A DNA stretch of 64,000 bases. Origin: Symmachiella dynata (GTDB lineage Bacteria; Planctomycetota; Planctomycetia; Planctomycetales; Planctomycetaceae). Below the pieces are notes generated by a model. The model saw only the letters and a list, made by a program, of their open reading frames with translations. It was not told where the DNA came from and searched no databases. Position 1 is the first letter of the stretch, and each line of letters begins with the position of its first letter. This document shows, one piece after another, positions 4,202-9,491 of this stretch. The position numbers and the translations under genes are program-made. Where the stretch lies: positions 750,001-814,000 of the forward strand of contig NZ_CP036276.1 in the NCBI RefSeq assembly GCF_007747995.1. Reading direction: 5' to 3'.

Positions 4202-5671
4202 ATGGCGACGCAAACATCGACCGGGAATAATCTCGACAACCTCACGCTCAAAAACCGAGGTTGGCTGGATACGATTTTCATGTCCCCCGTGCTCTGGGGA
4301 GCAGCGCTGACCGCCGGATTCTATGCGGTGTTGCCTTATCTACCCGTACAACAGGCGCTCGCCCGACGGTATTGCACGGGACATATTTTGTCCTATACAG
4401 AAACGACGTTGTTCTTTTTGGGCATCGCGATTTTGGCGATGAAAGCCCTTTCGCTCAGCACGCAACGACGGGCTTTGAAATTACAACAACTCTATGAGTT
4501 GCCGGGTGAAACCGACGACGCTGTTCAAAATGCCACGCGGATGATGGTCGTGGTTTGCGAACTCCCCCGGCGGATTCAACGTACATTTTTGGTACGCCGC
4601 ATCGCCGAAGTCTGCCAAAACGTGCGGGGGTTGCGCTCGACAAAAAACTTGTACGAACATCAACAGTATCTTTCGGACATCGGGTCGGAACGCTTACACG
4701 AAAGCTACAGCCTGATCCGCACCATCACTTGGGCGATTCCCATTTTGGGATTTCTGGGTACGGTGATGGGGATCACGATCGCGATTGCCAATGTCAAACC
4801 GGAGCAACTCACCTCCTCGATGGACAAAGTCACCGGCGGTTTGGGAATTGCTTTCGATACCACCACACTCGGTTTGGGGCTGACGTTAGTGCTTGTGTTC
4901 TTGACCTTTTGGGTTGAGAAATCAGAACAGAACATTTTGCACGAAGTCGACGAACTCGCTTTCAATCACATTAGCAGTTGGTTCCCGGAGCCGGATACGA
5001 CCAGTCCGTTGCTGCAAGCCGAACAACAGGCAGCTGCACAGTTGCTGACCCAAACAGAAGCAATCGTCGCCCAGCACGCGGACGCATGGCAAACGAATCT
5101 CGGGCAATTGCGTGAGCGGTGGTCGGAGACTATGGAGAAACAACAATCCTCCCTAGCCGCCTCGCTGCACGCCGGGACGGAGTCGACGTTGGCTGACCAT
5201 GCCCGGCAATTGGCAACGGCTCGCGAAGAACTGCTCAGCGGGTACCAAGGGGTCTCGCAGCAGATTGCGAGCATGATGGATGCCCAGCGCGAAGCGATGA
5301 CGGAACAACAACAAGCCGCGCAGGAATCGATGGATGAGCAACGACAAGTCTTGTTCAATCAAATTGCCACTGTGCGAGATGATCTCAAGGTGCAAACCGA
5401 ACAGATCACCACTTCGATTTCTTCGACTGCTGAACACTGGAATTCAGAACTGAGCACCGCTTCGCAAGCGATGACGGCCCAGGTCGGACAATTGCAGCAT
5501 CAAGGGGAGTTGTTGTCCCGCATCGTCGAACAGGAAGAAAACCTGGTGCGTCTGCAGGGAACGTTGGCCGAAAATCTCAGCGCCATTCGTTCCGTCGAAG
5601 CGTTCGACGAAACGCTGCACAACCTCAGTGCTGCGGTGCACTTGTTAACGGTCCGCAGCAAAGCGGCGTAG
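4202..5671 (+). CDS. MotA/TolQ/ExbB-type proton channel protein with long coiled-coil tail
   Basis: This 489-residue inner-membrane protein has two hydrophobic segments near the N-terminus (about 29-47 and 63-85), a cytoplasmic linker, and a MotA/TolQ/ExbB core at about 170-245: WAIPILGFLGTVMGITIAIA followed by LGIAFDTTTLGLGLTLVLVF. The GTVxG and AFDTT-x-LGL motifs are the family hallmarks of the pore helices that energise ExbD/TolR/MotB partners with the proton motive force. Residues from about 270 to 480 are polar, rich in Gln/Glu/Ala, and predicted coiled coil, much longer than in TolQ or ExbB. GAGAAG precedes the ATG. It is the first gene of an operon with two single-span coiled-coil proteins (5785-8238, 8235-9404), which are candidate B-type stator subunits. 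Confidence 0.88.
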   Translation: MATQTSTGNNLDNLTLKNRGWLDTIFMSPVLWGAALTAGFYAVLPYLPVQQALARRYCTGHILSYTETTLFFLGIAILAMKALSLSTQRRALKLQQLYELPGETDDAVQNATRMMVVVCELPRRIQRTFLVRRIAEVCQNVRGLRSTKNLYEHQQYLSDIGSERLHESYSLIRTITWAIPILGFLGTVMGITIAIANVKPEQLTSSMDKVTGGLGIAFDTTTLGLGLTLVLVFLTFWVEKSEQNILHEVDELAFNHISSWFPEPDTTSPLLQAEQQAAAQLLTQTEAIVAQHADAWQTNLGQLRERWSETMEKQQSSLAASLHAGTESTLADHARQLATAREELLSGYQGVSQQIASMMDAQREAMTEQQQAAQESMDEQRQVLFNQIATVRDDLKVQTEQITTSISSTAEHWNSELSTASQAMTAQVGQLQHQGELLSRIVEQEENLVRLQGTLAENLSAIRSVEAFDETLHNLSAAVHLLTVRSKAA

Positions 5672-5784
5672 TGTTTCGAGTCTTGAAGTCGCGAATTGTC
5701 CCCAGCAGGTTGTCTCAGACTTTCAACATCGCTCACACAGCTTGCCTGCCAGAGTGATGTCCTCCCTCCATAGCGGAAACCGGA

Positions 5785-8238
5785 ATGAGCCGCCGTTCAT
5801 CACGCTCTAATTTGACCGTCTCGCTCTTTCCGTTTCTGGCGGTTTTAGTGTGCGCGATGGGAGCGCTGATCTTCCTGCTCATCGTCACCACGCAAATGAT
5901 CGGTGACGAGTCGGCGCAGAAGAAGAAAGTTGTGGAGGTCAAAGCCCCGGAGCCCACCCCCGCACCCAATCCGTTTATCGAGGTCGCTCCGTATGAATCA
6001 CCGGATCGCGAGACGCTCGACGCCGCGCCGGAGTTTGTTGTGGTCCTGCCCAAAGTCGAACCGCCGCCGGAACCCAAACCGATCCCGCCGCTCATCACCG
6101 TGCCGGATCCCAATATCAAACTCCGCCGCCAAATCGCGGATTTGAAAATTCAGCAACAGCGCCGTCGGCAACAACTGGCCGAACAGTCCGCGGAATTGTT
6201 AGAAGCTCAGCGCGCCTTGGATGCCGCGCGGCAGGATCTGAAGCAACAACAAGCAGCGCTGGACGAACTACAAGACGATCAAGCGAGCGTTGGCGAAAAG
6301 AGCCAGGAAATACAAGCGGAGCGGAAACGGCTGTTGTTGAAAATCCGCAAAACGGAAGAACAATTAGAGAAACTGGAAAACCGCCGCGCGACGATGCCCA
6401 GCAAATATGCGTTGATCCCCTACGATGGGCGTCAAGGAACGACACGGCGGCCTATTTTTGTCGAATGCACCAAAAAGGGTATGCGTTTTCTGCCGGAAAA
6501 CGTCTATCTCGGACCGTCGCAATTAGAAGGATTCACCGATGGCTACAACCCATTGCTAGCCGGGGTCCAGGCGCTCAACGATTATTGGACCCAGGTAGCT
6601 AAGACGCCGAACGCTCTGAACGCGGACAAACCGTATGTCATGTTGATCGTGCGACCCGAAGGCAGCGTCACCTATTATATGGCCCGCAAATTCCTCACCG
6701 AATGGCAAGAGCCCTACGGTTATGAATTGATTGAAGATGACTTTGCCTGGGAATTGCCGCCCGCTGATCCTCAAGCACAGCAAGTTTTGCGACAAGCCAT
6801 TGCGGAAGCACTCAAAAACCGTCGCGACGTGATTCGCAAATACGCGGTCCGCGGCAGCATGGATGCATTGTCCGAGTTTCCTAACGAGGAAGATATGGCC
6901 GACCCGGAACTGCCGTTCTCTCAAGGGACCTCCAACGCCTCACGCTTCGCGGCAAAAGCCCGTCGGCATCGTCGTCGCATTGCCGAACAGGGAAATGCTT
7001 CGGTCGGCCGAGGGTCAGCTGGTCGCGGGACTGAGGGGCGCGGACCAGGCGGAAGTCGCTTGCAGCCAACGCAACCGCAGCAGTCGACACGGAAATCGCA
7101 ATCATCATTGCCAGGGTGGGATGAGGTTCCGTCGCAGTACGGGCAAAACGGCTCGAAGAATCCGGGCGGGGGCTCGTCCCCAGCAACCCGTGCCCCGGTG
7201 GAAGATCCGACCGACGCCTTCCAACATGCCGGTGAAATTCCGCGACGCTTTCTCTCCCCGTCCGATGCACAGACCTTGGAACCGGGGTGGAGTCGGGGAG
7301 CGGCGAACGAAGACCAAGCGGCGAGCCTCGCTGGAATGGGAACTAAGGGGAGTAATCCACAGGCCTCCGGCAGGAACCAGCAATTCCCCGGCGGGAATCC
7401 ACAGTCCTCTGGGGGCAACCAACCACCCTCGGGTCGCGACAACGGCACCTCTTCGCTGTTCGATGATCTCGATCCCACGCAGGCGGGAACAGGCAATCCG
7501 CTGGAGCAGAAAGTAACCGGCAACAATAGCGGACAAACCGGCTCGGCCGAGCAGGGGGGGCAACCTGGAAGTCCGGCTCAAACCAGCACAGCGGCCAATG
7601 CGCGGGGACCGCAATCTCCTTCGAGCGATGGAAAACCGGGCCGCGGACAAGCTGGCCCTCAAGCACATCCCACCGGAAACGAATTGGCCAAAGCGCCCTA
7701 CGTCGGCCGCTCGACTGGGTCGCCGGGGCAGAATTCTGCACGGAATTCCGCACAGAATTCTCCGCAAACCGGCGGAACGTCGTCGCAGTCGGCTATTGGA
7801 GAGCAAGGCCAACCTGCTTTGCCGCAGTTAAATATTAACCAACAACGGCAAATGGATCGGATGCAAAAAAATCTATCCAAACGAGGCTGGGGTTTATCAC
7901 GCCGCGCGGGGATTGGTATCGAACGATCCGTCAACGTGGTGATTACGCCTGATCGTATCCAAGTCGGGAAGTTGGAGATGGCGATTGTTCTGGGGCATGG
8001 AGAAACAGAGCAACAAGTCGTGCGTGCGGTGATCGTGGACATTGATGAAAATGCCAAAACATGGGGCGATCCCCCTTCGGGATTTTATTGGGTCCCCTAT
8101 GTCAGGTTTCGCGTGTCGCCCAATGCGGTCCATATTTCCAAGCCGATCGAACAGGCGCTCCGCAAGGGAGGACTTTCGACCAAGACGACTTACGGAGAGG
8201 CCACCGTTGTGAGTCCGAAACAGGAGGTCTCCCGATGA
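5785..8238 (+). CDS. Single-span coiled-coil protein with low-complexity middle, putative stator partner
   Basis: This 817-residue protein is anchored by one N-terminal membrane helix at about 11-37 (LTVSLFPFLAVLVCAMGALI) after a basic MSRRSSRS start, the topology of ExbD/TolR/MotB. A proline-rich region follows, then a coiled coil at about 110-205, a globular region at about 210-370, a long Gly/Ser/Gln/Pro-rich low-complexity stretch at about 385-690, and a compact C-terminal domain of about 120 residues. Unlike ExbD/MotB, the membrane helix has no Asp. It lies 113 bp after the MotA/TolQ-like gene and overlaps the next gene by four bases (ATGA), so coupled synthesis is likely. No catalytic motif was recognised; function in a force-generating envelope machine is inferred from context. 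Confidence 0.78.
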   Translation: MSRRSSRSNLTVSLFPFLAVLVCAMGALIFLLIVTTQMIGDESAQKKKVVEVKAPEPTPAPNPFIEVAPYESPDRETLDAAPEFVVVLPKVEPPPEPKPIPPLITVPDPNIKLRRQIADLKIQQQRRRQQLAEQSAELLEAQRALDAARQDLKQQQAALDELQDDQASVGEKSQEIQAERKRLLLKIRKTEEQLEKLENRRATMPSKYALIPYDGRQGTTRRPIFVECTKKGMRFLPENVYLGPSQLEGFTDGYNPLLAGVQALNDYWTQVAKTPNALNADKPYVMLIVRPEGSVTYYMARKFLTEWQEPYGYELIEDDFAWELPPADPQAQQVLRQAIAEALKNRRDVIRKYAVRGSMDALSEFPNEEDMADPELPFSQGTSNASRFAAKARRHRRRIAEQGNASVGRGSAGRGTEGRGPGGSRLQPTQPQQSTRKSQSSLPGWDEVPSQYGQNGSKNPGGGSSPATRAPVEDPTDAFQHAGEIPRRFLSPSDAQTLEPGWSRGAANEDQAASLAGMGTKGSNPQASGRNQQFPGGNPQSSGGNQPPSGRDNGTSSLFDDLDPTQAGTGNPLEQKVTGNNSGQTGSAEQGGQPGSPAQTSTAANARGPQSPSSDGKPGRGQAGPQAHPTGNELAKAPYVGRSTGSPGQNSARNSAQNSPQTGGTSSQSAIGEQGQPALPQLNINQQRQMDRMQKNLSKRGWGLSRRAGIGIERSVNVVITPDRIQVGKLEMAIVLGHGETEQQVVRAVIVDIDENAKTWGDPPSGFYWVPYVRFRVSPNAVHISKPIEQALRKGGLSTKTTYGEATVVSPKQEVSR

Positions 8239-9404
8239 GTCGCCGTCGCAAAAAAAGTGATCTGGAATCGGGATCCGACTCGTTTCTGGATATCATTGCC
8301 AACATCGTTGGTATCTTGATTATCCTCATCGTGATCGCCGGGGTCCGCGTGAGCCAGATGCCGGCCACTCCGGAGACCGAAACGGCGGCGATCCCCGCCG
8401 ACCCCGTGCCCGCGACGATTGTCGTGGAACCGCCACCCAAGATCGAAGTGGCTTTGGGGGCTGCCACAGAATTGCCCAGCGAGGAACTGCTGCCGCCCGA
8501 GCCGCCACCCCTTGTTGTTAAAGTCGAACCCAAGCCCGAACCGGAGCCGGTCCAGCCGCCGCAACCTTCTCCACAATTGCTGGCCGACATCACGCAATTG
8601 CAGCGAGACATCGACAAACTCGATCGCGACGTCGCTGAGGTCACGCCGCAGCTGGCCAGTGCCATTGCCTCGCAAGACGAAATTGCGGAAGCGGCAAAAG
8701 CAGCGCGGCAAGAGTCGGAAGAGGTCCGCACTCAACTGGCTCGGTTGAAAGCAGAGCTGGATGCACACAAGCAGGACGTTGCGGACGACATGACGCATTT
8801 GGCGATCTTGGCCGACGAAATCAAAACCCGCGACACCCAACGGCCGCCAGTCAAAGAAATCATCCACAAGCTGACGCCGGTCAGCCAAATTGTCGAGGGA
8901 GAGGAGTATCACTTTCGTCTCGAAAACAATCGTATTTCCTACGTTCCGCTCAAACAGTTAATCGATAGTTTGAAAACCCATCTCGGACACCGCCGCGCCT
9001 TGCTCTCGCGGACACGCACGCATCAGGGGTTCATCGGACCCATTGAAGGATACCGCATGCGCTACCTCGTCGAACGCAAGCCGTTGTCCATGGTGGATGA
9101 GTTAAAGCACGGCCCGGGAATGTTCCGTGTGGCAGTGACGGCGTGGCAGATGCAAGTCACCTCGGAGGTGGAAGCAGAAACTGCCGAGGAAGCACTGCGC
9201 GTCGGGTCGCGGTTTGTGGAGGTCCTCAAAGCCGCCCCGCCTGAAACGACCCTCACCATGTGGGTCTACCCCGACAGCTTCGGGTTGTTTCGCGAATTAC
9301 AAACGGTTGTGCACGCCAACGGCTTCAACGTCGCCGCTCGCCCCTTGCCCGAGGGGATTCCTATCGCCGGTTCGCCCGACGGTAGCCGCTCCGCAGGGCA
9401 GTGA
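8235..9404 (+). CDS. Single-span coiled-coil protein, ExbD/MotB-like N-terminus
   Basis: This 389-residue protein begins at the ATG that overlaps the upstream TGA (ATGA), with AGGAGG directly upstream; the frame is open further 5' but that part is antisense-like extension. After a basic MSRRRKKS start comes a single membrane segment, SFLDIIANIVGILIILIVIA, in which Asp19 sits at the entry of the helix, like the essential Asp of ExbD/TolR/MotB. A proline-rich linker (about 45-110), a coiled coil (about 115-200) and a C-terminal globular domain of about 170 residues follow. I propose it is the proton-binding B-type subunit working with the channel protein at 4202. No peptidoglycan-binding OmpA motif is visible. 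Confidence 0.8.
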   Translation: MSRRRKKSDLESGSDSFLDIIANIVGILIILIVIAGVRVSQMPATPETETAAIPADPVPATIVVEPPPKIEVALGAATELPSEELLPPEPPPLVVKVEPKPEPEPVQPPQPSPQLLADITQLQRDIDKLDRDVAEVTPQLASAIASQDEIAEAAKAARQESEEVRTQLARLKAELDAHKQDVADDMTHLAILADEIKTRDTQRPPVKEIIHKLTPVSQIVEGEEYHFRLENNRISYVPLKQLIDSLKTHLGHRRALLSRTRTHQGFIGPIEGYRMRYLVERKPLSMVDELKHGPGMFRVAVTAWQMQVTSEVEAETAEEALRVGSRFVEVLKAAPPETTLTMWVYPDSFGLFRELQTVVHANGFNVAARPLPEGIPIAGSPDGSRSAGQ

Positions 9405-9451: not shown

Positions 9452-9491
9452 AAAAAAACAGCCACCGCAAGCGAATGGCTTACGGTGGCTG
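9452..9491 (-). terminator. Rho-independent terminator of rpoD
   Basis: On the minus strand a stem CAGCCACCG-x-AAGC pairs with GCTT-x-CGGTGGCTG around a short loop (9460-9491) and is followed by a run of seven T (complement of the A-run at 9452-9458). It lies about 30 bases after the stop codon of the sigma factor gene. It could also stop readthrough from the stator operon ending at 9404. Confidence 0.85.

Follow-up and report, generated by a model that had tools for sequence, protein, structure and literature searches.

A MotA/TolQ-type channel gene with two unlike ExbD/TolR-like partners in Symmachiella dynata: a probable 5:2 motor variant with a heteromeric, usually single-acid axle

Why should a gene for a MotA/TolQ/ExbB-type channel subunit be followed by two different B-type genes, only one of which specifies an acidic residue where its helix enters the membrane? 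The question is raised by three complete co-directional reading frames of Symmachiella dynata, here termed A, B and C in their order on the + strand. All trio coordinates refer to the window, that is, the whole 64-kb stretch analysed (G000:C1:750001-814000) of a 7.77 Mb genome contained in one contig. Gene A (4202..5671, +) specifies a channel subunit of 489 amino acids with a long tail, as judged from a PF01618 match and an alignment of 25 sequences. Gene B (5785..8238, +) specifies an acid-less, ExbD/TolR-like partner of 817 amino acids, assigned from its reading frame, alignment and AlphaFold2 model, and gene C (8235..9404, +) an acid-bearing partner of 389 amino acids, assigned from its reading frame and alignments. 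The longest version of the C frame begins at 8061 and the conserved start lies at 8235, so that the C start and the B stop share the ATGA at 8235-8238; this overlap, and the shared direction of the two partners, had been recorded correctly in the initial annotation. We regard the trio as a variant of the 5:2 motors whose axle is probably heteromeric and usually bears one acid. The best explanation, to which we assign a probability of roughly 0.55, is an ion motor of the MotAB/ExbBD/TolQR superfamily in which a ring of five A subunits encloses a single helix each of B and C.

The two partners differ at the membrane entry. In the window Asp19 of SFLDIIANIVGI (codon GAT, 8289..8291, +, within SFLDIIANIVG) occurs in C only, as had been noticed initially, and the corresponding stretch of B, residues 15-21 (5827..5847, +), reads FPFLAVL, with Ala19 at the position of the C aspartate. 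Asp19 is invariant in alignments of 27 and of 64 C sequences, and the expectation that relatives would retain it held throughout a survey of 111 loci (102 distinct C rows, some genomes being represented more than once), C19 being Asp in all 105 readable loci. In B the flanking residues L14, F15, P16, L18, V20 and L21 are invariant in 24 sequences; position 19 is Ala in 79, Thr in five and Asp in seven of the 91 readable loci. Where A219, B19 and C19 can all be read (85 loci) the combinations are D/A/D (72), D/T/D (5), N/D/D (6), D/D/D (1) and G/A/D (1), the glycine being that of L052. As a control within the same genome, the MotA/ExbB loci L002, L003 and L005 each have two ExbD-like partners, recognized by motif within 1.5 kb flanks, and all six of these carry the Asp. 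Paired B genes are thus ordinary in the host genome and an acid-less partner is not.

B and C have homologous membrane helices that align in register, 43 columns matching 1-43 on 1-43 with a probability of 95.6, while 20 shuffles gave no more than 0.92. The membrane part was compared alone because the coiled coil inflates the whole-length profile match (98.7%); the BLASTP similarity between B and C is likewise weak and lies mostly in the coiled-coil stretch. AlphaFold2 models (built on 64 C and 52 B sequences; mean predicted local distance difference test score, pLDDT, 82 and 64, respectively) agree with the succession of helix, proline linker and long helix described initially for both partners. 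The first helix is predicted at 15-50 in B and at 15-40 in C, followed in B by a linker and in C by a disordered Pro-rich one. The second, likely a coiled coil in B, spans residues 111-203 of B (6115..6393, +; block pLDDT mostly 86-95) and 113-201 of C (8571..8837, +; 84-97), so that the two are predicted to have nearly the same start and length. The distance from membrane helix to folded domain varies together in the two proteins (r=0.83 in the 93 of 113 loci that could be measured, some of which repeat a genome), with a median difference of 8 residues against 19 when shuffled, and the relation persists in contrasts calculated on the tree of A (r=0.84 through the origin, 74 contrasts). The control comparisons of the A tail with the B spacer (0.00) and with the C spacer (-0.08) are flat. 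A measure taken from approximate landmarks, which gave r=0.62 over 65 of the 113 loci, was superseded, its C landmark being wrong in the window itself. Argued from the sequences, a heteromeric B:C axle is suggested.

The three genes also travel together. C is present in 36 of 40 genomes, the host's own included, the four misses all belonging to family f3; since in addition the motif residues are invariant, the trio is not a chance assembly. A larger survey of 118 genomes of the class, in which the best 9-15 candidates were scored per genome and an A of the window's type (type I) was recognized at 229 bits or more, yielded C in 93, B in 97 and type I A in 68. Outside family f2 (89 genomes) all three genes occur in 66, none in 21 and A plus B only in two, and B was found in each of the 68 genomes having type I A. 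The co-occurrence of two B-type genes with the channel gene, on which the initial annotation depended, is therefore real. Strong C matches (E <1e-50) across 392 genomes of the phylum, with four candidates scored per genome, all fall within the window's class, and when named loci are ranked by their C relative, the best 80 of a larger number all come from records of planctomycetes, including Gimesia, Schlesneria, Planctomicrobium, Thalassoglobus and Fuerstiella. Four planctomycetal trios (L113, L126, L128, L143) are found in records titled Candidatus Kuenenia stuttgartiensis, titles which may belong to misnamed metagenome-assembled genomes.

A number of findings weigh against a B:C axle with one acid. 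The acid-less state of B is not obligatory, since seven of the 91 readable B sequences have Asp19 (L082, L087, L108, L113, L125, L126, L137) and the B of L112 carries the C-type motif FGSDSFLD; L112 is an eighth acidic case, outside the count and unreadable in that alignment. An exact DNA pattern for FPFLDV[L/F]xC is matched in at least five of 397 genomes of the class, in two genera, and all five matches are B relatives (344-368 bits). In family f2, Glu stands near the helix start in all 19 readable B sequences, often as AEL in place of FPFL, and an acid lies near the start of only five of 20 C helices, so that here the acid may have moved to B rather than been lost. The initial claim that the second helix always lacks an acid thus fails. 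With regard to the pairing itself, a weak link (0.23) joins the rest of B to the C spacer, the spacing correlation falls to 0.52 without the ten largest contrasts, and a cruder measure, the length of the longest run without proline, shows no correlation between B and C (r=-0.03). The structural models are of monomers only; profile comparison detected no homology between C and the first domain of B (0.3%); and ExbD/TolR is not listed among the structural matches of C, which are generic RNase-H-like ones. Lastly, it could be D219 of A that actually carries the proton. The heterodimer with one active protonation site envisaged initially is partly supported: helix homology and spacing co-evolution are two hints of pairing, and C Asp19 is constant in the readable loci, but B is not acid-less everywhere. 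At L112 (L112:6308-10386) FGSDSFLDVLANMVG stands in the B-position protein and FGSGSFLD in the C that follows, giving two acid-bearing C-like helices.

Family f2 deserves separate consideration. Among its 29 genomes B is present in 29, C in 27 and type I A in none, only a weak A relative being found, which adjoins a different partner; examples of B and C persisting in this state are L214-L229, L060, L061 and L063. At 20 f2 loci neither the C signature SFLD..AN (0/20) nor the B signature FPFL (0/20) is retained. This joint absence of type I A and of both helix signatures fits a contact of both helices with A. The value of f2 as a clean loss experiment is weakened by the Glu near the start of every readable B helix. 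At the f2 loci L173, L175-L181, L183 and L185 the gene after a MotA-like one with AFDST encodes a partner with the helix EDSFVAVVVTKLTGALLF, in which Ala replaces the usual Asp and Lys lies within the membrane segment.

The most credible alternative, though we consider it unlikely, is a classical homodimer with an accessory protein: two C subunits would form the axle within A, and B would be a separate tether or force transducer beside the motor, in the manner of TolA or TonB. An acid in every readable C is what such an axle would display, and the architecture of B is that of a protein which reaches out. The models predict two folded periplasmic domains in B and one in C, which were overlooked in the initial annotation, as was the linker of approximately 280 residues between the B domains. 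The first ExbD/TolR-like domain of B (residues 223-315, 6451..6729, +) was assigned from its strand and helix order and a match to TolR 5by4 (Z 6.3, 84 aligned, root mean square deviation 3.2), and the second (residues 710-803, 7912..8193, +) from a match to ExbD 8p9r (Z 7.1, deviation 2.8, 71 aligned of 74). The two are homologous to each other (93.9% by profile comparison); their ExbD/TolR structural matches are tied with unrelated RNase-H-like chains. The intervening Gly/Pro/Ser/Gln-rich stretch (residues 403-685, 6991..7839, +) has pLDDT values mostly below 50 and is predicted to be disordered. Against a B that stands beside the motor are the in-register homology of its helix to that of C, a spacer that tracks the C spacer, the fact that f2, which has no type I A, has no FPFL in B either, and the Asp found at the same helix position in seven loci, which makes most sense where an acid can work.

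Less likely still is a motor whose main proton site lies in the channel, C Asp19 acting as a helper to a ring of A D219, as with E49 of GldL in GldLM. A matches PF01618 (MotA_ExbB) with 44 bits (cut-off 22.9, E 2.2e-11), and both pore motifs named initially are in place: GTVMG, residues 186-190 (4757..4771, +), with G186 invariant and T187, V188 and G190 at least 90% conserved in 25 sequences, and AFDTT, residues 217-221 (4850..4864, +), with T221 invariant and D219 at least 90% conserved. That conservation of D219 suits a channel acid, as does the apparent trading of acids between the subunits: AFNTT replaces AFDTT in six of the seven loci with a B Asp, and also in L164, the one match to the DNA pattern with A in its stretch. 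According to PMC8986121, E49 in transmembrane helix 2 of GldL is critical and E31 of GldM dispensable for gliding. C19 is nevertheless less variable than A219, which is Gly in L052 and Asn in six loci, and few evolutionary events lie behind the trade. In the tree of C, two loci with Ala in B and Asp in A (L128 and L129) share a clade (support 98) with five B-Asp loci, nested at a weak 80-81. The exchange of charge between A219 and B19, almost perfect at first sight, is spoiled as a rule by L082, which retains the A Asp, and by a related, type II trio in which AFNTT is combined with an acid-less B (L151, L156, L161); because of the latter we treat the trade as a lead suggested by the alignments. 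At L108, L113, L125, L126 and L137 the gene order is B-C-A, not A-B-C, alongside the B Asp and the A AFNTT.

Type II trios occur within the class and beyond it, including planctomycetes outside the class (examples are L151, L153, L156, L157, L161 and L163). They have an acid-less B' with FPFLS or FPFVS, which is much shorter than B (188-272 amino acids), an acid-bearing C' with DSLLD or DSLAD, and an A' that often starts with a zinc-ribbon-like motif.

ZorA of the Zorya system is a MotA-like channel with a long cytoplasmic tail, and an anti-phage motor of this kind therefore has to be considered. Residues 240-489 of A (4919..5668, +) form a long, probably helical cytoplasmic tail with a conserved tip (consensus FEETLHxLxAAVHLLT and a terminal AA in the alignment of 25), and the PADLOC ZorA2 models match A with a best E of 3.8e-12. 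We nevertheless regard this as very improbable: A falls well short of the NCBIfam threshold for ZorA (22.4 against 100), B and C have no OmpA match and their PADLOC matches are weak and confined to long-helix regions, and the trio is widely conserved in the class, with no defence family among the scanned neighbours in the window and none shared between the 90 loci compared. Least credible of all is that B is an ExbD copy decaying after duplication, its acid lost by drift, for although paired ExbD-like genes are common in the host genome, FPFL and G26 are among the most conserved B residues, B19 is Ala or Thr in 84 of 91 loci and B accompanies type I A in all 68 non-f2 genomes.

The surroundings of the trio offer no cargo. 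A Pfam scan of nine proteins around it revealed LacI, ROK and MBOAT genes upstream and, downstream of C on the opposite strand, genes for a sigma-70 factor and then an ABC exporter; one scanned neighbour has no family. The gap between C and the convergent sigma gene contains a terminator-like hairpin on the minus strand (9459-9491). As stated initially, no TolA, TonB, OmpA-type or nuclease gene was present among these nine proteins, and no vWA match was obtained from them, the neighbours that recur in 90 loci not having all been scanned for it. The conserved cargo sought among the relatives' neighbours was not found: in 90 loci longer than 12 kb clustering recovered C in 86, B in 83 and A in 75, and next in frequency comes an orphan of approximately 1,340 amino acids, divergent from the trio and without a Pfam match (31 of 90 loci), seen for example at L044:12613-16533 and L051:10639-14724. 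The host copy of this orphan lies outside the window (G000:C1:345636-349565). It is an unlikely cargo because it is absent from the window and occurs in genome G026, for which the search gave no B and no C.

Several features of the proteins remain to be described. Hydropathy indicates three membrane segments in A, starting at about 68, 175 and 214, and our own reading of the sequence suggests a fourth near 31-50. A has no phmmer match among PDB sequences. Residues 224-379 of C (8904..9371, +) are predicted to form a periplasmic domain of the alpha/beta type that includes a beta insertion (pLDDT mostly >90); its matches are RNase-H-like, with Z no higher than 6.1, and we assign it to no family. 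The C-terminal tail (residues 365-389, 9327..9401, +) is highly conserved and is a candidate partner-binding peptide: P370 and G383 are invariant and I377, S380 and S386 at least 90% conserved in 27 sequences, and P372, I377 and Q389 are invariant in 64. Neither B nor C matched an informative Pfam family. PF02472 (ExbD/TolR) gave no match to B at E values up to 1 or to C at values up to 0.5, and is not among the 25 commonest of the 223 families that a set of 64 C homologs hit. Searches of PDB sequences with C (phmmer) returned three matches only, all with E >0.5, and Foldseek searches with the whole models gave none at E values up to 0.001. In L230-L232 (family f3) the membrane segment of the C helix contains a basic residue, either Arg (VGIIIRLIL) or Lys (VGIIIKLIL).

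If five A subunits do surround a B:C axle, the trio would form an inner-membrane, ion-driven motor in which the ring encloses two unlike helices rather than two identical ones. B and C would extend as a parallel, side-by-side helical stalk of matched length, both proteins terminating in folded periplasmic domains. In the usual form C alone would bear a protonatable Asp where its helix enters the membrane, facing a ring of A threonines, T187 and T221. These may be equivalent in position to the pore-lining threonine pair of known channels, for which a role in the pore is described (PMC12905483, PMC12204202), and the arrangement of two helices with an acid meeting the threonine ring is modelled by analogy on the 5:2 family (PMC9389320, PMC12905483). 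A proton, which we take as the likely ion, would enter and protonate C Asp19 and be released to the cytoplasm, the B:C axle moving once for each A subunit passed. A turn would then consist of five equivalent steps of 72 degrees instead of ten of 36. The torque or pull would be delivered to the periplasmic domains of B and C, whose ExbD/TolR-like character suggests contacts with the wall or outer membrane; a partner there might be bound by the conserved tail of C and by the second domain of B, which could reach further on its flexible linker.

Of the systems known, the AglR-AglQ-AglS gliding and sporulation motor of Myxococcus xanthus also has one MotA/TolQ-like gene beside two different B-type genes (PMC3169522). 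It differs from the window trio in that AglQ and AglS both have a conserved aspartate (PMC9389320), found here on C only, and in that both match PF02472 (PMC3169522), which B and C do not. PMC9389320 leaves it open whether AglQ and AglS pair with each other or each with itself. That unsettled pairing, together with the three host loci having two ExbD-like partners, makes it too strong to assert, as was done initially, that the B subunits of every known stator dimer are identical. ExbB with two ExbD proteins (the names ExbD1 and ExbD2 appear in several papers) resembles the trio in placing two ExbD-type genes by one channel gene, as at those host loci by motif, and differs in that both partners carry the Asp (six of six) and are short, about 140-220 amino acids as called. 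The closest prior mention is PMC12204202, which describes, Planctomycetes being among the phyla, vWA-associated TolQR systems of the Planctomycetes-Verrucomicrobia-Chlamydiae group with one Q-type and two different R-type genes; no vWA was seen among the nine proteins scanned here. The excerpts do not mention a single-aspartate pair for tolQ with paired heterologous tolR, and the figures or supplements of that article may include kin of the trio. GldLM shares the ion-driven 5:2 plan with long periplasmic domains on the axle (PMC9389320, PMC8986121) and differs in its homodimeric GldM and critical acid in GldL (PMC8986121). ZorAB has a long-tailed MotA-like channel, which A matches weakly; the trio differs from it in lacking an OmpA-type domain in B or C, in having no effector genes that we could see and in its wide conservation in the class. 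A natural pair with one acid-less member was not found in the excerpts of PMC9389320, PMC3169522, PMC12204202, PMC12505986, PMC12905483, PMC4646322 and PMC8986121, and literature searches provided no name for a class-wide planctomycete motor.

In the 5:2 model the steps are of 36 degrees, and the ten-fold symmetry is considered "almost certain" to be universal, an asymmetric outside contact leaving five equivalent states (PMC9389320). By analogy the B:C axle would be a built-in case of that asymmetric contact. That the trio is a natural 5:1:1 motor with one proton-binding acid on its axle, each turn taking five protons and five steps of 72 degrees and the ten-fold symmetry being broken, is a more tentative proposal, to which we would give somewhat less than an even chance. 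Were it true, the rare relatives with Asp on both partners would represent its two-acid counterpart, and family f2 a form with the acid on the other partner, B and not C. The number of acids varies naturally on a single scaffold, being one at most loci and two at a few, and this variation opens the coupling ratio and step size of the 5:2 family to test. The trio points to an envelope motor common to a class of planctomycetes, and could be used to test how such rotary motors step.

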